The translations under genes and the position numbers were made by a program. From Paramacrobiotus metropolitanus (lineage: Eukaryota; Tardigrada; Eutardigrada; Parachela; Macrobiotidae): a stretch of 64,000 nt of DNA. Location: positions 558,001 to 622,000 of the forward strand of contig NW_026570231.1 in the NCBI RefSeq assembly GCF_019649055.1, written 5' to 3'. Each line of letters opens with the position of its first letter. The stretch's first letter is position 1. Shown in pieces: positions 17,045-54,300 of the stretch. Below the pieces are notes generated by a model. It ran no database searches. It was given only the letters and a program-made list of their open reading frames with translations, and had not been told where the DNA came from.

Positions 17045-18128
17045 GCGTCCGAGAATGCCGACCGGGAAACCGAATGGCCGAGAAAAAAAACATTATAATT
17101 GCCGATGTCGAGCTGATTAAAGAGTTCCGTTGATTTGTTTATGCATACTTACATAATGCATACGAACAATGCAATGAAATCGAATAAGAAACAAGGAATA
17201 TGTATGACCTGCAAGGTCGGATGAGGATCGTAACTACCGTACATAGCGTTAAAGTAAGTACTCGTACTGTTTAATAACACCAGGTACATTAATATTAACT
17301 CCAACACCAAGCATGGTGTTTTTTTTTTAAAAAATGGTTTGAAAAATTTGATCTTACCGTTAGGATTAGGAGCCTAGTACAATATATATACCCACAACTC
17401 TACCGCAGTGTTATTAAAAATACAAAAGTTCAAAATACAGATTCGGTGAAAACGAAAAAACTTGTAGTTCTGCAGTACAGAAGGGCGGTGGCGGGTACAG
17501 TTGTTGTTGACCAAATGCCTGCAACAGTGCAACTGCTACTGTTTCATGTTTGTAGGCATTTGTTGACCATGGTATGTAGTACTATGTACTATGTACTCGT
17601 AATTCGTGAAATATGTCTGACGAGTGAATACATTTTATTTATAAGTACTTCTGTACGATATACTTATCGCCGTTGGTTCTGCTTTGTTTCTTCAAGGTCA
17701 GACGTCTTGATTTGGCTGGGAATTGGTTTCCAGGTCTGTTACTTCCAGTGTTTGTTATTCGAAAAATCGGTTTATTGCAATTTGCAACTGGACTCTGGAG
17801 AAGATTTTTTGTGGGAGTCAAGTGGATCAGCTGATCGGGATCCATGTGTGTTTGTATTGGGCCTGTTGGCTGGTTGTGGTAAGCACTAAGCAGTAACCGT
17901 AAGCTGTTACCGTAAACCTAATAACCTGGGAAGTAACCGTAATAAATATGGCGGTGCCGTGTGATTGTCCATAATCCATATCATTCAGTTCTGTTTCCAC
18001 TCTGCTGACGTAATTCAGATTTTTCATGTGTGCAGTATTCTGAGTAAAACTGTAAAGGTTTTGCAGAGCCTGCCAGTGCGAGAAACTGCAAGTGCAAAAC
18101 CGAAAGCCTTTGCATAGCTCGGTAAGCC
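17045..18128. other. Intergenic
   Basis: No recognisable gene. The 147-codon frame at 17446-17889 is Cys/Tyr/Val-rich and looks like chance. The motif GTAACCGTAA occurs several times between 17890 and 17945 and resembles the sequence near 170-184 at the left end of the window; it may be a dispersed genomic repeat. Confidence 0.35.
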
Positions 18129-18881
18129 ATGAATGGTGCAACGGATAACAGTGTAGACTCGGATCAAGAAGATCTGCGAATGCGCTCCACCAAAAACAAG
18201 CAGGGTTGGGTGCTACCATATCTGGATCCGTTCTGCAAAGAATTCGTGGATCTAATGCGGCAGCTGCCCAGCTCATCTCCTGTAGCCGATCTCGGCTGCG
18301 GCTATGGATATACCAGCTTGAAACTACTGGAAGCTGGCTGCTCCGTTCTAGCTAACGATCTGGACAATGATCAGCTGCAAGAACTGCAGCAGTCTGTTCC
18401 CGCTGATCTGTCTGGACGTCTCACAGTGATGCCTGGAAACTGCGTGGAGTTATCGTTTTCCGATTCCTCATTCAAAGGTATTCTGGCAGCGCGTTGGATG
18501 CACTTTTTAACCAGCGAAGAAATCATTCGATCGGTTTTGAAGCGATTTTATTTATGGCTGGAAAAAGGTGGTGTTTTGTGTCTGACATGCAACACCCTGG
18601 TGCATATTGCCACTCCAGAGGCGTACGAGAAATACGTAGAGAAGAAGAGCAGCGGTGATGAGTGGCCAGGTTGGCTGGATAAATCGCAGAACCATATCCG
18701 GAAGCATTTAGTGGACAACATTCCCGACATTTTTTACGGCTTTGATGTCGAGTCGCTTTCGCGTGAAGTAACGTTGGCGGGATTCGACGTCGTCAAATGT
18801 GAGATGTATGGCTCGACGGGGGTAACCAAGCCGTGGCTCGAAGATAACTGCATTGGAATACTTGCTACCAAATCCAGATGA
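18129..18881 (+). CDS. Class I SAM-dependent methyltransferase, copy A
   Basis: An intronless 250-residue protein with a complete Rossmann-type methyltransferase core. Motif I, which binds the methionine end of SAM, is VADLGCGYGY at 52-61. The acidic residue contacting the ribose is in ANDLD at about 75-79, MPGN at about 98-101 follows, and the post-motif region FKGILAARWMHFL ends strand 4. The segment before the core, GWVLPYLDPFCKEF (26-39), is a conserved cap shared with the paralogue at 26073-26897. The substrate is unknown. To my memory this GWxxxxLDPxxxEF cap is typical of bacterial methyltransferases of uncharacterised function and not of named animal families, so horizontal origin is possible. 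The copy lies 441 bp from the convergent BLTP3 gene. Confidence 0.85.
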   Translation: MNGATDNSVDSDQEDLRMRSTKNKQGWVLPYLDPFCKEFVDLMRQLPSSSPVADLGCGYGYTSLKLLEAGCSVLANDLDNDQLQELQQSVPADLSGRLTVMPGNCVELSFSDSSFKGILAARWMHFLTSEEIIRSVLKRFYLWLEKGGVLCLTCNTLVHIATPEAYEKYVEKKSSGDEWPGWLDKSQNHIRKHLVDNIPDIFYGFDVESLSREVTLAGFDVVKCEMYGSTGVTKPWLEDNCIGILATKSR

Positions 18882-26072: not shown

Positions 26073-26897
26073 ATGGAGAGAGAAGGCACAAACTACGCTA
26101 CATCTAAAGTGAAACCTACGCTCAACAAGTATGGTTGGGTAATTGAACAGCTGGATCCTTTATGGTAGGTACTGAAAGCTGAAACCCGTTGAAAGCTTTT
26201 CTTATTCTTCTGTTAATAAAGTGCAGGGCGTGAAATCGATGTCATAATATTATGTTTCAGCGCGGAATTCTTCACGATGGTCCCGTCCATTCAGGCTCCC
26301 ATTGCCGATTTTGGTTGTGGATACGGCTACAGTAGTAAGAAACTCCTTGAATTAGGAGCCACTGTCATATCGAATGATCTCGACGATCGGCACATGGAAG
26401 ATCTCCGCGTCACGGTGAATCCCGACCATGCCGATCGCCTGACAATTATGTCGGGAAATGTTGCCGATCTCGATATAAAAGCGGAATCTCTCGGTGGCAT
26501 ATTAGCCGTTAACTGGATCCATTTTCTTCCAACGGCGGAAGCTATTCGAGATGTTTTGGACAAGTTTTATCGCTGGTTAGCTCCCGGCGGGATCCTATGT
26601 GTTACAGCGGTGCAGCTGATCCAGTATGTCGAGCCGGAAATATATAAGAAATACATGAAAGGCCGGGGGAAGAAGGAGTGGATCGGATGGGTGACTCAAG
26701 AGGAAATGCGTGAAGATATGAAAGATAACTTGCCCAGTACTATCTGTGCCATCGATGAAGTCATCTTGCGAAGGGAGCTGCTGCGGGTTGGGTTCAGTGT
26801 GGACAAATGCTTTCCATACAGTGCACCTGACGTTTACGAAGACGACTACATTAAAGATTTTGCTGTGGGAGCAATAGCCTCCAAGCCTGTAATTTAG
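26073..26897 (+). CDS. Class I SAM-dependent methyltransferase, copy B
   Basis: A 242-residue paralogue of the protein at 18129-18881. Two exons (26073-26164 and 26261-26897) join in phase inside the conserved cap: GWVIEQLDPLCAEFF. Motif I is IADFGCGYGYSSKKLLELG, the acidic motif is SNDLDDRHME, and LGGILAVNWIHFLPTAEAIRDVL matches copy A's FKGILAARWMHFLTSEEIIRSVL position by position. Both copies also share the FYRWLAPGGILCVT / FYLWLEKGGVLCLT strand. The intron has a GTAGGT donor and a pyrimidine-rich TTTCAG acceptor, so this copy is a genuine eukaryotic gene and not assembly contamination. Copy A lacks the intron, so it was either gained here after duplication or lost there. The substrate is unknown. 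Confidence 0.85.
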
Positions 26898-28039
26898 ACA
26901 GGTAATGCTTGATCACTTCAAGCGCTCTGATTCAAGTTCCAAAAGGCATTCCTTGCATGAATGATGAGGAATAGGATATTGTTTGTGCGGCTATCGCTGA
27001 TTGTGTACGTACTTGGATTGCTTTTAGAAATCTTATTTTTTATGCTTCGCATACTTCTACCGCATAATTTACCTGTACATCGTTGCCTTTCTGTGACTGA
27101 GCGACTTACAGTTAGAGGAATGATTAAATATACATGCGCCTTGCGGCCTACAATCTACAGTAGATGCACTTCAGATATATCGACTATAAGGCAGACGACT
27201 AGTTCCAGTTGTTGAAAATGTTTTTTTTTGTATAGTTAACTGTACGGGGCAAAAGCTTTTAACTAACAAAAAATTATTTTCAAGTTGATCGTGTACGCTC
27301 AAATTTCAGTACGAATACAGATCTATACGTCTTAAGCGAAACGCTGTAATAATTTTCTGTCACTCTTTCTCTCTACCGTTTATGTTTTTACTGTAAACTG
27401 CGTATACAGTATGGCGCTCCGTGATGCCGCTTTGATTTAACCCTGACCGTTTCTGCCAAGTTCTTGTAGAAGTTCTTAGGAATAGATTTTAAAACGAACA
27501 GACGTTCGCGCGTAGGAACAAACGTGTTCGAAGCCAACACTGCACACAAGGTGGCACGGTGTTGAGTAAACGGACAAGTACAACGACACAGTTTTTTCAA
27601 GTTTTTGATTTTTAAAATATCGGTTACGGTCGCCTTGACTGATGTATGTTATGTAAGTAGATGACCGTGACATTAAGCAGTTCTGGAAGTTTCCATCATC
27701 TGGATTCGTGCTGGGAAGATTAGGGATTTCTGTTTGTGGTAGCTCGTTTGACTTACTTTGCTTTCTTACGGGGTATATTTGGAACTCATTGAAAAACTCT
27801 GGATTATTACTGATCGTTGCGTAATGGTCATTATTATTGTATGAAGCGTATGTTTTTTCCTGATCGAGAGCGACAATGCGCAAAGCGTACTTGATGCATC
27901 TCGTCGACTGCGGCTTCGATAAATTCATTATTATCTAAGTGATGTTCTGGATAATGCCGCAGAGCTTTTTGGGGTGAAATATTGACATCGCACTGGTTTT
28001 TATGAAAAAATCATTGAATTCGCTGTGCAATTTGGAAGT
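26898..28039. other. Intergenic
   Basis: Upstream region of the repeat-protein gene. The only frame worth keeping is the minus-strand one at 27476-27928, listed separately. Confidence 0.3.
27476..27928 (-). CDS. Possible orphan ORF, 150 codons
   Basis: A minus-strand frame starting with ATG at 27928. Its first 60 or so codons have coding-like composition, reading STRCIKYALRIVALDQEKTYASYNNN, and an Asn/Pro/Ser-rich stretch follows. The C-terminal third loses this character and may be intron read-through. I see no domain, signal peptide or relative. It could be one exon of a lineage-specific gene or chance. Confidence 0.25.
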   Translation of the reverse strand: MNLSKPQSTRCIKYALRIVALDQEKTYASYNNNDHYATISNNPEFFNEFQIYPVRKQSKSNELPQTEIPNLPSTNPDDGNFQNCLMSRSSTYITYISQGDRNRYFKNQKLEKTVSLYLSVYSTPCHLVCSVGFEHVCSYARTSVRFKIYS

Positions 28040-30362
28040 ATGACGTTAGCCGGCATAACCGGTTTTGTGACCTTTGGATTGGCAAACTTTCTTCTGTCAG
28101 GTATGGACGCCGATGTCGGGTGAATAAAACCTTTTGACATAATTACCGTTACCAGAAAATTTGACAAGGTTTTATTAAGCAAATAACACTTTTTTATACT
28201 CGATGGTAATAACTGTACGTCCAAAGATGGAATTCGATGCTGTACCATTGAGCTGCCTGCACTATAGATCATATACGCAGTAACGCAACTGTAGGAGCTT
28301 ACTCGCTGGTCAGTAGGAGTAGTACATCAATACGATATAAAATGGTTCATAAATAATGTTAGTATGTACATAAATAAGTACATACATTATATAATTATAA
28401 AGGGTCTTTCGCCAATGTGCGTCAGAATAAAAGTTACTTTTTTCTAAATTTTACTGATTGTCGGCAGGTGCCTCATCCTCACAGTACGACAATTCGTACG
28501 GGGATTCCTCTGGGTATCAGACAAACTCGTACAACTATCCTGCTCGCCATTACTACATTCCTTCGTACAGTATTTATGTACCCTTGCCAAAGAATCCCAG
28601 ACCACCGGATGTACCGGATGCTCCTGGTGCTCAGTTAGGCTATCCCTATCTCCCCAGTATCCCTGGAGCACCGAGTGGGCCAAATGCTCCCAGCGCCGTG
28701 ATAGGCATTCCCCACTTTCCACCCAATCCAAATTCCCCCAATGCACCGCGACCAGAAAGCGGTTACCCGCTAGGACCCACGCATCCGGCTGCGCCGCCGG
28801 CACCTGCCGGTCCGTCCATACCGGGCGTCAAGCTTGATGTGCCGTATTTTCCCTCCAATCCCAGCGCACCGCCTGCTCCCGACATTAAGGCTGGCTATCC
28901 AGCTGGACCCATATACCCTGATGTACCAGGTGCACCCTCCGGTCCACCAATACCCAATGCGCAGATTGGTGTGCCATATTTCCCTCCCAATCCAAATTCA
29001 CCGAATGCGCCAAATCCACAAAGCGGTTATCCATTAGGGCCCACTCACCCGGCAGCACCACCGGCTCCATCTGGTCCATCCATACCAGGCGCTCAAATCG
29101 ATGTACCATATTTCCCATCCAATCCCAGCGCACCGCCTGCTCCAGACATCAAAGCCGGCTATCCCGCTGGCCCGATGTTTCCGGATGTGCCTGGGGCGCC
29201 TTCTGGGCCAGCTGTGCCCAATGCCCATATCGGTGTTCCATATTTTCCTCCTAATCCTGACTCGCCCAATGCACCGAACCCCCAAAGCGGCTATCCGTTG
29301 GGTCCAACACATCCTGCGGCGCCTCCCGCTCCTTCAGGTCCTTCGGTGCCGGGTGCCAAGATCGACGTTCCGTATTTCCCGTCTAATCCCAGCGCTCCTC
29401 CAGCACCGGATATCAAAGCCGGCTATCCTGCCGGACCCACCTATCCGGATGTTCCTGGCGCTCCATCGGGTCCCGCTGTTCCCAATGCGCACATTGGGGT
29501 GCCGTACTTTCCACCAAACCCCAACTCTCCCAATGCGCCTAACCCTCAAAGCGGGTACCCAATAGGACCTACTCATCCCGCTGCGCCTCCCGCCCCGTCC
29601 GGCCCTTCTGTGCCAGGCGCCAAAATTGATGTGCCATATTTCCCATCGAATCCCAGTGCACCTCCGGCTCCCGACATTAAAGCCGGCTATCCCGCTGGAC
29701 CCATTTACCCTGATGTTCCCGGTGCCCCCTCCGGTCCCGCAGTGCCGGGTGCACATATCGGTGTTCCGTATTTCCCTCCAAACCCAAACTCGCCCAATGC
29801 ACCATCTCCGCAAAACGGCTATCCATTAGGACCAACGCATCCGGCAGCTCCTGCTGCACCTTCCGGTCCATCTGTTCCTGGCGCTAGTATTGATGTACCA
29901 TATTTTCCTTCTAACCCAAGCGCGCCTCCCACGCCCGATATTAAAGGCGGCTACCCGGCTGGGCCCTCGTATCCGGATGTTCCCGGTGCACCTTCCGGTC
30001 CTTCCGTTCCCGGTGCCCATGTGGGAGTTCCGTATTTCCCGGATAATCCCATTGCACCGTCTGCTCCTACTGCCAGCAGTGGATACATTTCGGGGCCTTC
30101 CTACCCATCTGCACCGGATGCTCCGTCCGCGCCACCCGCTCCAGCGGCTATGATAACCTACCCAGGATATCCCGCCCAGGATTCGTACGATACGGTATGT
30201 TACGGTGCTTCCGTGCTTCAAGGTGTTTGTATATCTCTACAGTTTCCAATGGCTGTAATTTTACAGAACTATTACCATTATGGAGGAAACAGCACCGGAA
30301 ACGGGTATTCAAATGGCGGTAATCAAACAAATGTGGCGAAATTTCAAAGAGAACTTAACTGA
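28040..30362 (+). CDS. Secreted proline-rich repeat protein
   Basis: Three exons in phase: 28040-28100, 28468-30194 and 30267-30362; 627 residues. Exon 1 is a signal peptide alone (MTLAGITGFVTFGLANFLLS), so the mature chain is exported. The body consists of 44-residue modules of two alternating kinds. Type A starts IGVPYFPPNPNSPNAPNPQS; type B starts IDVPYFPSNPSAPPAPDIKA. Each A+B pair is 88 residues. Five full pairs follow without an indel, flanked by a degenerate leading module and a final divergent A. Proline is roughly a third of the residues, with Gly, Ala, Ser, Asn and Tyr making up most of the rest; Cys is essentially absent from the repeats. The tail (NYYHYGGNSTGNGYSNGGNQTN) is Gly/Asn/Tyr-rich. 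Such composition suits an extracellular structural material (cuticle, eggshell, silk-like or adhesive), but I recognise no named family. Confidence 0.82.
28701..30020 (+). repeat. Five coding 264-bp tandem repeats
   Basis: The type-A module begins at 28701, 28965, 29229, 29493 and 29757, an exact 264-bp period (88 codons). Each unit is two diverged 132-bp halves. Units differ mainly at synonymous third positions while the amino acids stay nearly constant. That points to selection on the protein, not a recent copy-number burst. A sixth, diverged A half starts at 30021. Confidence 0.9.
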
Positions 30363-31328
30363 CCTTTGCGCCTGTGTGGAATGAGAAGATTCAGCTGCTG
30401 ACCGAAACTGAATTGTTCGCCACCTAAAGGATGTTTAAAGTACTTAACCCATTACGTTTATGCTTTTTTGTCCTTAAAGCTGCACTTACATACTGTTTTC
30501 GTAATGCGCCGTTAAGTTTATGTAAGTACTCACTACTCAGCATTACTACATCGATTTTGTTGGTTTGGTGGGATCGGATACCCCGAGTCTGTGCTTAACT
30601 GTTCCTAGTTGCTGCGAAGAGTCTGGACTCTTGAGACATGACAGTTGCTATTACAACAAATTCAAAAAGTAAACGCGATATAAGACCGTGAGAAACGCTG
30701 AGGTTTAGGGACAGTAAATTGGCAGTTTAATTTGTTTAAATAGTTACTTACTTATTTACGTTCCTCTTTAGCACAAGACCACCGGTAATAAAATTATTAT
30801 GTATCTATTAATTTTATTAAATCGTGGTCGCCAAAAAACACGAAGTGCCACGAACTATGAAATATATGGCGTAAAAAAACAATCCGATAAGAAGAAAACG
30901 TTTACAGTGTCAGGAAGTGCAGTACGAGTACAGTAAGTACTAATTTTTTAACCAGCTGCCTACTTGCTCACCTGCTCCGGGGCACAGTACGCTAATTAGA
31001 GTGGTATGAAGACTAAACCGGAAGCTGGCGGAACATCCCACTCGTTAGTGACGGTTAGTCGTTACGAGACTGGATTTGGGATAAACGGTGTTTCATTCCT
31101 TGCTTAATTCATAGTTTGCTATCAATAAAATTTAATATCCGTGGGAGTGGGAGATTATAACAAACTGAAAACGAGCCCTTTTTGTTATTCCCGTATTTGC
31201 AATCAAAGTTCCTGGTCTCTCAGTTGTTACACTCATCCGTTTTCTGTGGTTTCATTCACCAGTCGACGCTCTTGAGTCTTTCTGAAAGCGACGCTGTATC
31301 TTGTTACCAGTTACCTGAATCGAGTACC
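30363..31328. other. Intergenic
   Basis: AT-rich region between the repeat-protein gene and cornichon. I see no gene; it should contain the cornichon promoter. Confidence 0.35.
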
Positions 31329-33119
31329 ATGGCTTTCACATTTGCTGCGTTCTGCTTTCTTGTGGCGATGATTGTTACTGCCATTTTGATATTTTTTGCG
31401 ATTTTCCACGTAAGTGCAGTAGACTTTAAAGAGCAACGATAATGTGCCAGACTGTCGGCGTACACTAGCTGTGCAAAATAAGCAAGTTTAACTGTTTATT
31501 TCAACTTTAGCGACAACTGATTAGTACTTCAATACGATGATAACTTTCCTTACAGATGATCGCTTTCGATGAGCTGAAGGTAAGTACTTGATTCGATTTC
31601 CACTCAGAGCTGGGCTGAATTGGTTGGAAGTTGTCCTTGTGGTTCTTTTGGCTTGTTTACCCAGCATAACACGGTATATGCCTACATGGGCTTTTGATGT
31701 TGCAGACTGATTACAAGAATCCAATCGATCAGTGCAACACGTTGAACCCAGTAAGTTTCGCTGCAATTTCAAAGAGCAAAATTGCGTCTTTTAGCGGGTA
31801 AACTTGAATTATAAGCCGCTGTATTTTGTAAAATGCCGCTTCGGTTTGTGTCTTGGCCATATTGTACTTGTGTATTGTGATGGTTAATCTGCAATCACTA
31901 ATCAAAAATTTAGTTCAGGATCTGAATCCACACTGGAAAATCTGTTTCAACTTCATTTTAATTTTTTAAACGTTTTTGATAAACAGCCCCGGATGCGGTA
32001 ATTGTCACGTGTAAACTGACTTGGAGCTGTCTGTAGATTCTCTAGCACAGTTTGTCATTAACTCCGAATAGCTCTTGTGACGGATTATCTACAGTAATTT
32101 ATATCTGTAGTTGGTTCTGCCAGAATACTTTTTGCACCTGTTCATCAACATATTATTCTTGCTGAGTGGATCCTGGTGGACTCTGCTGTACGTTTGGATG
32201 ATCCTTTTATTGCGTTTGAAAGTTGTGATCTGTTGATCTTTGCCTTTTGCAGGTATAATGTGCCTCTGTTGGCTTATCACGTTCGGAGGTTAGTTTTCCT
32301 AACATGTTGTTTTATTTACCGAAAAGTTTTATTTGTCCACTCTAAAGTTATTCATATGCCTAGCGCTACGTTTTTCGCGTGCCCACACAGTCTTGAACAT
32401 TAAAATACAATGATATTAAAATCCGCCGTAGGGATTGCTGCTATTACCGGATAAATATTTGACATTTTGTTCACAAAAAAAAGCGAAATAAGCTGAACGT
32501 ACATAGCACAAATTTGGTGTTCAACTCTTCAAAAAGTTTTAGCGAAACCACTGCCATCTGTGTCAGGTTTGTTATAAATATACATAGTAATTAGGAAGTA
32601 AGAAGCGCTGCCTACCGTAGCATGTCTATAATTTGGAATCGTTCGATTACTTGATTGTTAACCATTGAACTGATTGAAGGTACAAAAATCGACCCATTAT
32701 GTCTCATTATGGACTCTATGATCCCACATCGATCATGAATGCGGACGAGTTGAGTCACTGTATGAGGGAAGGTTGGATCAAGCTGGCATTCTACTTGATT
32801 TCCTTCTTCGTTTACTTATACATGTAAGCATTCGTATTTATTAAGATTTTTTTAGTTTAAGGTTATAAGATTTTCAAGGCTCTTTGCCAATTTCTTCCTT
32901 TTATTTCACACAGTTTAAATAATGGTAATAGCGAAATGCGAGACTAACGTTGAAGACACTCATTTTTATTCGTAATGACGCTTATTATATGTTTGATTAG
33001 ATAAATTATTATGCATTTTAATATTATAAATATTTTTGTTGCACTTTTATGGAAGTTATGTGCTTCGGAATAATCATTGCAGGATGATTTATGAGCTCGT
33101 TACGAGCACCTCGAACTGA
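31329..33119 (+). CDS. CNIH: Cornichon homologue (ER cargo receptor)
   Basis: Cornichon proteins are small membrane cargo receptors that load selected transmembrane proteins (TGF-alpha/Gurken-type ligands, AMPA receptors) into COPII vesicles at the ER. Seven exons: 31329-31409, 31556-31579, 31706-31750, 32111-32187, 32253-32288, 32680-32823 and 33083-33119; 147 residues, matching the family's usual 144-160. The sequence is highly conserved: MAFTFAAFCFLVAMIVTAIL forms the first membrane segment, then the COPII-binding IAFDELKTDYKNPIDQCNTL, VLPEY, the central hydrophobic stretch ending in NVPLLAYHVRR, GLYDPTSIMNADEL, and a last hydrophobic segment KLAFYLISFFVYLYMMIYELV. It lacks the acidic insert typical of CNIH2/3, so it fits the CNIH1/Drosophila cornichon type. 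Exon 2 is only 24 bp. Confidence 0.95.
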
Positions 33120-49410: not shown

Positions 49411-51317
49411 GGGTATAAATTGGAGCAGAAGCTGACAACAGAAAACGGCTTCGTTAGAAACTGCCCAGACAAGTTACTATAGGTACTACGTCGCTTTTAT
49501 TATGCTTTTACCGGACTTCGATAATTTATCGTGCAATCTTTCTTAACTTGATAGAAATTTTATTCAAGGCTTAATTTAATACTCTGTACCTTCAAATTGA
49601 TTGCAGGAGGACAACCCAAAAACAGTCTTGGGTGTCTGCTTTCCCGAAATGCGCTATTAAAATCCGTAAAGTCTGGAATAACCATCCAGAGACCTGGCCG
49701 CCGTCCTAAAAACGGTTTGAAAATCACAAAAAAATCGTAACATTCAACTACATCCTTCCACTCCTTTCACTTTTCCTACGACTGGTATACAGGCAATCCC
49801 AGCGAAAATTTCTCCCAAATTACGCGTAGGTCACGATCAACACGCATTGTTTACTGTTTTACGCTTGTTTGCAATTTGGCAGTACTTTTCTTGATAGTTA
49901 TGACTGATCTTCTAAAAACCAGATCTACTCACTTTTTGTCCCAGGCGTCAATCTTCCACGAAAAAACTAATCTTTTATGAAATAAGTACGACAAAACAAA
50001 TAAAGACTAATGGTAGTCGTTCAAAATTCCCCAGTTCGCGATCGAAGATCAGCATAATATCAGACCGTTAAGGAAACTGGAGATCCTTAGTACTTCGTCA
50101 CAAAACAAAAAGGCAAATTTAACTTCAGACAGTAGTAAGTACTCGTATAACGTATCAGAACGTACAGACAGTAGTAGATGGCGTGCGGCACGATTCAAAC
50201 ACATTTCGCCGTTTTCCATTCATTTTGCAACTCATCCTGCCGCCTCCGGTTACCGTTGCCATTTTAAAGTTGAAGTGTTGTATTCGTTTTCATGATTTTA
50301 TCATGACCTATGTACATTCCTTTTAATAACTCATACTTGTATGGATTCATTAAATAATTATTATTAAATATGGAATAAGTTTTTTACAACTTTAAATACT
50401 CTGCTCATTACACGGATTACAGTAAGTAAATTCACGTTTGGAAAAACACTTACAGCTTTGTAATGTTATCAATTCATTGTAAGATTTTACAATTTTCAAC
50501 ATCTGTGTGATACCTTACGGCTGACGATACTCTCTAATGACTAATTATAATGGGCAATTAAGCAACTGTAAAGAATTGTAATCGGACTGGAACCCAGAAA
50601 ACCACGTATACCGTATACTAATTTTATGATTCAGAATTATAAACATCTATAAGCAATCGTAAAAGGGCACGATTGCTGCTTTTAGCTACAAAATAATTTA
50701 GAAGTTGTTATTATTAAGTAACTTTTTAGGCTGAAATCATATGGATCGGTGATCCGTACGCACGTGCATCAAACCGCTCTAATTATTAGATGCATAGCGC
50801 TGACTTCATATCTATACTTCATATGCAAGGTGGTCTATAATTATCCCAACTCATGTTTATAAATGTGCAGATTATGAATCATTTCCAAGCTTGCAACTGG
50901 TTTGGATAGTGCGAGATGAAAACGGCTACATATTTTAATCATGATGCATGCGCAGCAACAGCTCAAAGAATAACAAAATACTTATTGCAGTTGACAGTAG
51001 GTGAGTACAGACTAATATGTATTGCGGAACTTGTCTGTACTGCCCTTTCCGGTTGCCGTATTGCAATTGGTCAGTCATTTTATCGGCGACTCCATGCTAA
51101 TTTTATACTGCGGCCTGCCGCTCAAGCTGAAATGTCAAAGTGAAGAAATACGCTGCATGTACGTATGTACAATAGCTCCAGCGGTATATGTTCTTATCCT
51201 GCTTTAACCAAATTTACAAATTTAACACTTGCATAAAATTAAGAGGCTCTGAAGCGTGATTTCAATATTACTATAAGTGCAGATCAAAAAGCGAGCCTCA
51301 TCATCTTATGGTAAACC
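49411..51317. other. Intergenic, CDK / SoxE divergent flank
   Basis: 1.9 kb between divergent start codons, AT-rich especially at 50330-50720. It probably contains promoters and enhancers of both genes. The frames at 50916-51207 overlap each other without coding character. Confidence 0.4.
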
Positions 51318-54300
51318 ATGGCGGCACAACAATTTACCGTGGATAGACCGGAAAGATCCTGTGGGAATTTTTCGGAATCGATAAAAAAGTCAGACGCAAT
51401 TAATTCTAACCGCTCAGCTATGACCAAATCAGTTGCGGAATCAACTAGCGGTTCCGGTGACAGCAGTAAATGTCCACCTACCGATATCCGTAACGCCGTA
51501 GCGTCTATTATGCATGGTTATGACTGGACATCAATCCCCTTACCGACCCGCCAAACTCCGGGAGAGAAACGCATTCCCCACGTCAAGAGACCGATGAACG
51601 CATTTATGGTATGGGCACAGGCGGCGCGGAAAGAACTGGCCGAAAAGCATCCTCATCTGCACAACGCGGAGTTATCAAAAACACTGGGGATTCTATGGAG
51701 GTAAGCGTAATCATGGACGCATACGAAGTAATATACTGCCTTGTGACCTCTTATCGCTTGTCGTTTGTCGATGTTTCATTATCAAATCAAAAAAAATTAA
51801 TTTGAGAAGTTGTCCAAAAATCGAAGTTTCAGTGATACTGTTATAAAGAATTTTTTAGTTTTTAAAACAAGGAAATCTTGCGGGTAATTTATGAATGCGA
51901 TTATGCGTTATGTAGCTAGTGTCTCTGGGCTGCTTTAAAATTGTTGGGCGCAGCTTTACCTATGTATTTGTACGGCGTAAAACGATTTTTTTGCTCAGTT
52001 TTTAAATGTTTCATTGAATTCATTCTGTTTGCGTCGACATTTCTGTAAAGGGTACGAGTACCCGAGTAGGTAACGAACAAGTTAGACCATCCTGTGCGAT
52101 ACCGGGATCGACTGCTTATTCAGAACGTAATGAGTGTAGATGATAACGATAATCTCCTCGCTCGAGCCTTGTGGACTTTATTGTAAAATTTCCGCTCAAC
52201 AGAATTACGGCGGTTAATGCAAACGAAATTATAGCGCTAAACAAAACGCTCCTGGAAACGTGCATGCAGGATTACCGCGTACGTATACGGCATATCCTGC
52301 ACCGTTTTACTGGCTTAAAGGTCATACTCTTAAACCTTCTGCCGCGTTTTCGTCATAATGTGTGGCACAAAGCAGTGTGTTGGTAACAGAGACCATACCT
52401 GTAATCAAGAAAATAACTGTATGATGTCAAAATGAATATGACAACCTCTCGCCTTCTGTTATAGCATTAAGCTTGTGGTCGTCCACCAGAAAACTCGGGC
52501 TCGCGCTCCTCAACGTCAGTTACATATCAGTGTGTCTGTAATTTGTATCCACGATTTCTTGCTGGGTGTCTTTTTGAAAGACATACTTTGAATACTCCGG
52601 TCATCATTCTTTGCTTGAAGTTTAATTATCAATTAACCGTACCGACTCGTACGTGCTAAGTACGAATTTATTATTTTCATCTGTAATTAAGGCACAGTAG
52701 GCACAGTAGAAAACAAAAGCCATGGACAATAAGTAGTTGTCCAGTATAAGTATGGTTGAGACCTTTCCATAAAGATGTAGAATGTGGATTATGCACTGCC
52801 GCATGCAGCTTACACAGAAAAACTATCCTGTGAAAACGCTCATGATTCCTTGGATTATGTTGTTCACGGATTTTATTTGAATGAAAGAGTTTGAAAACAA
52901 GTGTTTTGACTGGATTTTCAATCTTTTGACTGCTTCAACCATTAAGCGTGAATGACAGTGTTGAAAAAATAATACAGAAGTATACCAAGTTTAAAAAGGT
53001 CACTCTAGCCGAAACTTATCTCTCGGCGTGGCCAGATAGTTAGTATCCGTTAAATATCATATTTCATTCATTGTGGTTAGAGGAAACCCGCTGAAATCCT
53101 CTTTGAGGTTCACTTTTTGCCTGTTGGTTAAAACTTGTTGATAGTAACATCGATATTTAACAAGCTAAAATAGATGACGAAAGTCTATCCATAAATTTGT
53201 AAATGCATGTAATAAGTCAATTGGACTAATTTAAGTATTGCACCTGTAGAGTTCAGAGGAGGTTCAAATCGTTTTAGGGATTTGGAAAAATTCGGATCAT
53301 TGGTCAACAGTGAACACCTCGATACCTCTAAGAGCTCTAACATACACAATTAGTTACGTACTAAAAAGCGATCGAAACCTTTATATGTCCACGCATGGCA
53401 TAATACACCATATCACTGTATTGCATTTTTGCGCCCTGGCCCGAATTCGAAGCTTCAACGTCCAGATTAAAATTATTGTCTGTATATGCGGCAGCTATAC
53501 GTACTGAGTTGCACTCTGATCATATTGGCACATTCTAAACATTAAACCGTAAGTATTTAAAGGTGTTAATGTAAGCCTTGCATGTTACCCGTGCTTTTGT
53601 ACGCATGAAACTGTATAATTGCTCCTCTTTTCGATCGAAAGGCACTGGTTTCGGAACTCACCCGTGATAACAGTGCACGAACATTATCTTGTGCTATAAG
53701 TAGTGTTTAGTAATCTGTCAATGACCCCTTTGAGTGCAGAGAAAGGTGGCAAGTCATTTATCCCAAAACCAACACATAATTGTCCTTAAATTATTGATTA
53801 CAGACCACTGCCGGCTGAATCGGAACCTGCGTGCGCCTCACTGTTTAGCGATTGCATTGTGTGGTTGTGGCAGTAAAGCCCCAACGAGCGAAACCATAAT
53901 TTCTTTACTACAAAAATTTTGCTTCAAGTTCTCACATCATAAAAATAATTTTTTAGTTTGCCGGGAAGCAACTTTTCGTGCACACATCGCCAGCTTTTAT
54001 CTGACAGATTGTTTAGGGCTTTGAAAGTTTGTATAAGTTTATTAGGTACGTAAAAGGTAAAAGTAATAGCATATGCGACCACTGGGCACCAAACAAGTAC
54101 TCTGTAGTTGCCGACTGCAGGTTTAATTAGTCGAACCTTGTACTGCATATCACTGCATTATTATTAGTATTGGTATGAAAGGTTCGACTAATTTGAATTT
54201 TGCAAGTGGTTTACATGATTGCTTCTTCATACACCGCATTACGACTTATTAGCACGAATGTGGATCATTAGTCGATTAGCAATTACAGTAGACTGCTTAC

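Follow-up and report, generated by a model that had tools for sequence, protein, structure and literature searches.

A 264-bp tandem repeat in the genome of the tardigrade Paramacrobiotus metropolitanus raises the question of what kind of protein it encodes, and of what has kept the length of its units constant while their codons diverged. The repeat lies in a stretch of 64,000 nucleotides (contig NW_026570231.1, positions 558,001 to 622,000 of the forward strand; assembly GCF_019649055.1), which was analysed as a whole and is hereafter called the window; all coordinates are those of the window. The open frame spans 28458-30362, and the gene model built around it comprises the following features:

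28040-30362, + strand: predicted gene of 3 exons (splice motifs, frame, open frame)
28040-28100, + strand: exon 1, start codon and predicted signal peptide, 20 codons plus 1 base, 61 bp (splice motif, frame, hydrophobic profile)
28101-28467, + strand: predicted intron 1, 367 bp, phase 1, GT-AG (splice motifs, frame)
28468-30194, + strand: exon 2, Tyr-rich leader stretch followed by the complete module array (open frame, gene model)
30195-30266, + strand: predicted intron 2, 72 bp, phase 0, open in frame (open frame, gene model)
30267-30362, + strand: exon 3, Tyr/Gly/Asn-rich tail and stop codon (gene model)

The product of the spliced model has 628 residues, of low-complexity Pro/Ala/Gly/Tyr composition, with 169 Pro, no Cys and no Trp, and with few charged residues (24 Asp, 2 Glu, 4 Arg and 10 Lys). 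There are 29 Tyr in the array, 8 in the 35-residue stretch that precedes it and 7 in the 44-residue stretch that follows. Exon 2 has no stop in the coding frame, against 8 to 25 in each of the other five frames, and an in-frame stop at 27983 lies upstream of exon 1. The leader encoded by exon 1 is, by its sequence profile, hydrophobic and devoid of basic residues. Exon 1 had been annotated initially as a signal-peptide exon; the part of this claim that stands is a hydrophobic exon ending in a phase-1 intron, while the signal peptide itself is plausible. A phase-1 intron near the signal cleavage site is a common arrangement in secreted proteins, and the product is probably secreted, judging from the hydrophobic leader and from an intron of this phase near the presumed cleavage site. 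Since exon 1 is based on splice motifs and frame only, it might have been misassigned, in which case the protein would be intracellular and its regularly spaced prolines (see below) would form a multivalent ligand for SH3- or WW-type domains, PxxP being described as the core SH3 ligand. We regard this as very improbable: a hydrophobic leader is followed by a phase-1 intron, and SH3 ligands mostly have flanking basic residues, whereas here Arg and Lys together make up only 4 + 10 of the 628 residues. Intron 2 (30195-30266) is a multiple of three in length and has no in-frame stop, so that a form retaining it would still be translated, with 24 additional residues that would include two cysteines, the only ones.

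The repeat had been described from the letters of the sequence as a translated array of five exact 264-bp units, each made of two modules. Tandem Repeats Finder returned a period of 264 with 5.0 copies and 76% matches at 28725-30040, in agreement with a translated repeat; the exactness holds for length (0% indels) and fails for sequence, the DNA identity of the units ranging from 71 to 77% over the 10 unit pairs, with 69-84 of 88 residues identical at the protein level. Two further rows, at period 132, had 65% and 62% matches with 3% indels; despite these indels, the two kinds of module, hereafter A and B, align without gaps as protein, which confirms an 88-residue unit of 44 + 44 residues with a spacing that is constant over the ten core modules. 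The five units, each an A module followed by a B module, have their first residues at 101, 189, 277, 365 and 453 and occupy 28707-30026 (1320 bp). They are flanked, in unbroken register, by one degenerate module per side, B0 and A6, which extend the array beyond its initial description:

28575-28706, + strand: degenerate module B0, residues 57-100 (profile score, grid prolines; coordinates by subtraction from the unit positions)
28707-28970, + strand: unit 1, modules A1 and B1 (unit alignment)
28971-29234, + strand: unit 2, modules A2 and B2 (unit alignment)
29235-29498, + strand: unit 3, modules A3 and B3 (unit alignment)
29499-29762, + strand: unit 4, modules A4 and B4 (unit alignment)
29763-30026, + strand: unit 5, modules A5 and B5 (unit alignment)
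30027-30158, + strand: degenerate module A6, residues 541-584 (profile score, grid prolines)

The profile score of B0 (-9.1) was the best among 12 offsets (50-61), and the top score of 5000 shuffles was -13.7; A6 scored 21.0 at the expected offset. Across residues 57-584, self-identity was 0.825 at a lag of 88 and 0.558 at a lag of 44, and its maximum in 1000 composition-preserving shuffles was 0.217 (lags 20-196, in steps of 4). The mean number of identical residues, out of 44, is 38 between two A modules, 39.4 between two B modules and 25 between an A and a B module. The array is most simply explained by the duplication of a 44-residue module, divergence of the two copies and subsequent multiplication of the pair.

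As the initial annotation had it, the units differ at many third codon positions: among the 88 codon columns of the five units, 17, 8 and 81 are variable at codon positions 1, 2 and 3, respectively, a pattern that points to a translated sequence and that purifying selection would be expected to give. Over the 10 unit pairs, pS was 0.60-0.83 and dN 0.029-0.136; the Jukes-Cantor estimate of dS was infinite in four pairs, and omega was at most 0.077 in the other six, indicating strong purifying selection between units. A tandem array with a period divisible by three could also be a recently amplified minisatellite that is open in frame by accident and has no function, but the distribution of variable columns over the codon positions, the near saturation of synonymous sites and the low omega in the six of 10 pairs with a finite dS make this extremely improbable. 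Where two units agree in residue, they use the same codon in 302 of 774 cases (0.39), against 0.325 expected for independent choice, and this codon identity shows no fall-off along the array (0.381, 0.380, 0.424 and 0.391 at unit distances 1, 2, 3 and 4). There is thus no sign of recent copying between neighbouring units. Taken together, the nearly saturated synonymous sites and the flat codon identity mean that the units are old by this clock and have been held at the protein level; the array is old and conserved, its age being read from synonymous saturation, so that a high mutation rate would shorten it. The idea that codons were chosen so as to scramble the repeats against recombination was also considered and rejected, codon identity being above, not below, that of independent choice. 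From a module spacing that has stayed constant despite saturation, seen here in one species, it is a fair inference that the exact period, that is, the length of the module, is itself selected.

A further rule emerges when the modules are superimposed. The ten core modules have 19 invariant columns, 12 of which are Pro, at positions 2, 5, 8, 11 and 14 and at positions 21, 24, 27, 30, 33, 36 and 39 (120 of 120 cells); each core module has one to three further prolines, none of which falls in an invariant column. Prolines of this grid are encoded by the four codons in near-equal numbers (33, 32, 28 and 27). When 12 positions were placed at random 200000 times, at most 8 spacings of three arose, against the ten observed. 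Likewise, 118 pairs of Pro at a lag of three were observed, against 51.1 +/- 4.9, with a maximum of 68, in 5000 shuffles. The whole protein contains 24 runs of four or more prolines spaced by three (12 runs of five, 10 of seven and 2 of six), whereas shuffled versions of the array had 3.4 on average and never more than 10 (2000 shuffles). Long single runs do arise by chance, the longest in 2000 shuffles having 12 prolines; it is the regular succession of runs, rather than any single run, that is beyond chance. The distance from the last Pro of one run to the first Pro of the next, hereafter the hinge, is 7 residues at 22 of the 23 junctions; the sole deviating junction is the last, with a gap of 10, where Ile561 occupies a grid position. 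Charged residues (Lys, Arg, Asp, Glu) are found in 20 of the 120 cells of the hinges, but in just 6 of the 320 cells of the runs.

The same rule extends into the degenerate modules. B0 matches the B consensus at 10 of the 12 grid positions and at 9 of the 32 others, and A6 matches the A consensus at 11 of 12 and 14 of 32; for comparison, the A and B consensus sequences agree at 12 of 12 and 14 of 32. In B0 the hinge is shifted one triplet further along and the second run lacks one Pro, yet a gap of 7 is retained. The grid thus persists where the remaining positions have drifted. The VPYFP and GYPxGP motifs on which the modules had initially been said to be built are real; they are, however, mere pieces of this larger rule of a Pro at every third residue, in runs of five and seven, with hinges of 7, which is stricter than the one first seen.

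A polyproline-II (PPII) helix makes one left-handed turn per three residues (PMC8409303), with a rise of 3.1 Å per residue (PMC2787623), and Pro recurring at this spacing would favour such a helix, so that the runs can be read as rods. Each run would form a short, stiff PPII rod that makes about four or six turns and has its prolines on the same side; a hinge of 7 residues, being two turns plus one residue, would rotate this proline face by about 120 degrees from one rod to the next. This layout suggests a jointed structural fibre. Together with the gene model, it leads us to favour, with some reserve, a secreted, cysteine-free structural protein of the extracellular matrix, whose 528-residue core is a proline ladder of 24 runs and 23 hinges; with the above rise per residue, such a core could extend over about 164 nm at most. 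Since there are no cysteines, oxidative linkage of tyrosines would be the likeliest covalent bond, and we may guess from the composition that tyrosines in the array and in the tails are cross-linked in this way into an insoluble, extensible network. It is reasonable to look for the site of action, as a class, in the cuticle, pharyngeal lining, eggshell, silk, adhesive or another secretion. A bolder proposal, which we put forward tentatively and consider rather unlikely as it stands, is that the jointed ladder is an architecture of its own, in which PPII rods of alternately five and seven prolines are joined by hinges of a near-constant 7 residues that swing the proline face round by one third of a full turn, and in which this fibre or bundle geometry has been selected over the long term while the codons became saturated. 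With synonymous sites nearly saturated and grid and hinge nearly fixed, the sequence itself marks the geometry that matters. If true, the protein would make it easy to test whether the phase of Pro along a PPII chain determines how an extracellular material assembles or how elastic it is, and would serve as a template in the design of fibres.

The rods may be shorter than the runs. In the amelogenin peptide PXX33, the PPII stretches are just four residues each and are absent from the first 12 residues, according to the portion available of PMC2787623; PXX spacing alone is thus no guarantee of PPII structure. An AlphaFold2 model of two units, made from a shallow alignment of four rows (89-94% identical), had a mean pLDDT of 41.4, a pTM of 0.10 and no secondary structure, an output that would fit an extended or disordered chain and that neither supports nor excludes PPII. 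The low confidence of the model and the low-complexity Pro/Ala/Gly/Tyr composition would also be expected of a matrix protein that is disordered, condenses or binds mineral, where the spacing of Pro sets the size of the assembly and the hinges have no special geometry, with amelogenin (PMC2787623) and the disordered proteins of the Caenorhabditis elegans pharyngeal cuticle (PMC9629831) as precedents, as far as the accessible parts of these papers go. That 22 of 23 gaps are identical, the degenerate modules included, would however exceed the need of a chain that tolerates changes in length, and acidic residues (24 Asp, 2 Glu) are few for a mineral binder; we hold this explanation to be unlikely. 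Alternatively, the runs could fold back into a compact bundle of PPII helices with the hinges as turns, giving a folded, perhaps ligand- or ice-binding, protein rather than an extended fibre. Runs of fixed, alternating lengths with near-constant hinges do resemble strands and turns; the snow flea antifreeze protein is described as six PPII helices with short loops between them (PMC8409303); and Ala or Gly fills 49 of 100 third positions among the triplets counted. Known bundles are, however, glycine-rich, and the residue that recurs at every third position of collagen is Gly, in the accounts available, whereas the regular third residue here is Pro; and AlphaFold2 found no confident fold, although four near-identical rows make this a weak test. 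We therefore think a bundle distinctly unlikely.

Relatives of the protein were sought in Pfam, NCBIfam, the PDB and viral, prokaryote and plasmid collections, a coverage that has little bearing on animal relatives. Exon 2 matched no Pfam family at E up to 0.01 and no NCBIfam entry, and the plasmid collection gave no match. Searches with exon 2 and with the two-unit alignment gave 30 and 65 candidate stretches, respectively, among viral contigs and 25 and 58 among prokaryote genomes, none of them confirmed as a relative by tblastn. Two weak matches were obtained in the PDB, to AKAP14 (E 0.0048 in one search and 0.023 in another) and to a capsid protein (E 0.24). The alignment with AKAP14 consists of low-complexity, Pro-rich sequence with a similar Pxx spacing, and its bias of 59.4 bits exceeds its score of 15.8; we took it as no relationship in spite of an E below 0.01 in one search. 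The aligned stretch of AKAP14 (PDB 9d2f chain a, residues 155-308) itself has Pro at about every third residue. The VPYFP string occurs, in the text available, within a predicted serine beta-lactamase-like protein (PMC4447460) and also in a paper on Chlamydomonas light-harvesting proteins, and the GYPAGP string was not found in the open-licence PMC literature. In that literature, to the extent that its texts were available, no description of the 7-residue hinge rule was found, and the titles and abstract openings of the tardigrade and oikosin literature name no such protein.

We regard the ladder protein as a variant among secreted proline-rich repeat proteins, several of which invite comparison. 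The PXX/PXQ region of amelogenin, from vertebrate enamel matrix, belongs to a matrix protein, the class proposed for the ladder protein, and has Pro at every third residue, a triplet feature that is found here too; its PXX peptide has PPII stretches by NMR, and the length of the PXX region compacts the matrix, according to the available part of PMC2787623. There, however, PXQ triplets matter, whereas Gln does not figure in the counts of residues that follow the grid prolines here; moreover, the ladder is interrupted by 7-residue hinges into runs of five and seven, and exon 2 had no Pfam amelogenin match. In the nematode epicuticlin Asu-epic-1, according to the excerpts available of PMC9612446, an intron separates the signal-peptide exon from an exon of tandem repeats in which Pro, Ala and Tyr abound, and the protein is associated with a layer that contains dityrosine; the predicted layout here is the same (61-bp exon 1, 367-bp intron, repeat exon). 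Those excerpts describe epicuticlins as predicted to be disordered, as located in the outer cuticle and as having a signal peptide in some but not all cases, with repeats of 49-71 residues, YGD and GYR motifs and a number of repeats that varies between clones; here the repeat has 44 residues, GYR does not occur, YGD occurs once, before the array, and the units have near-saturated synonymous sites. Titin PEVK shares tandem Pro-rich repeats, and a title cited in PMC3859903 names PPII as its key motif, but its repeats, in muscle, are described there as 28 residues long and mostly Pro, Glu, Val and Lys, in contrast to modules of 44 residues in a predicted secreted protein with 2 Glu. The snow flea antifreeze protein and other PPII bundles have several PPII strands with short loops, in the available part of PMC8409303, strands that for the ladder are proposed; that protein is glycine-rich and folded, whereas the invariant third residue here is Pro (120 of 120 cells). 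By analogy, these four kinds of protein (amelogenin, epicuticlins, titin PEVK and PPII bundles) may work similarly, although in each case the ladder protein lacks one of the defining features that were tested. By their description, the secreted low-complexity proteins IDPA, IDPB, IDPC and APPG of the C. elegans pharyngeal cuticle also resemble the predicted product, and a proline ladder is not mentioned in the portion available of PMC9629831. Collagen is set apart by a Gly at every third residue, which is not the pattern found here, and exon 2 matched 0 Pfam families. The chitin-binding R&R domain of arthropod cuticle proteins is represented in Pfam, and it too was not found in exon 2 by that search.

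Within the 64-kb window, tblastn at E 0.1 found no second copy of the ladder gene outside 28000-30400, and ARAGORN and Rfam returned 0 matches each. Nearby frames match eukaryotic LSm2, PEN-2, the Rab11/Ypt31 group, exocyst Sec15 and ATG7. A single open frame of 345 codons at 16007-17044 matches the dynein-2 light intermediate chain (E 2.5e-18; the best stretch covers residues 153-331), and this part of that gene thus seems to be without introns. At 51315-51704 lies a Sox exon, which we take to belong to a SoxE-type gene; it encodes the Sox_N domain and positions 1-40 of the 69-position HMG box, which is apparently split by an intron. Sox genes are characteristic of animals. A gene starting at 31329 is presumably cornichon-like; its 46-residue exon piece had no match in Pfam. 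Two class I methyltransferase genes, both matching Pfam Methyltransf_11 and Methyltransf_25, lie on the + strand at 18126-18881 and 26220-26897 and share 86 of 215 residues (40%), the second ending 1143 bases upstream of the start codon of the ladder gene.
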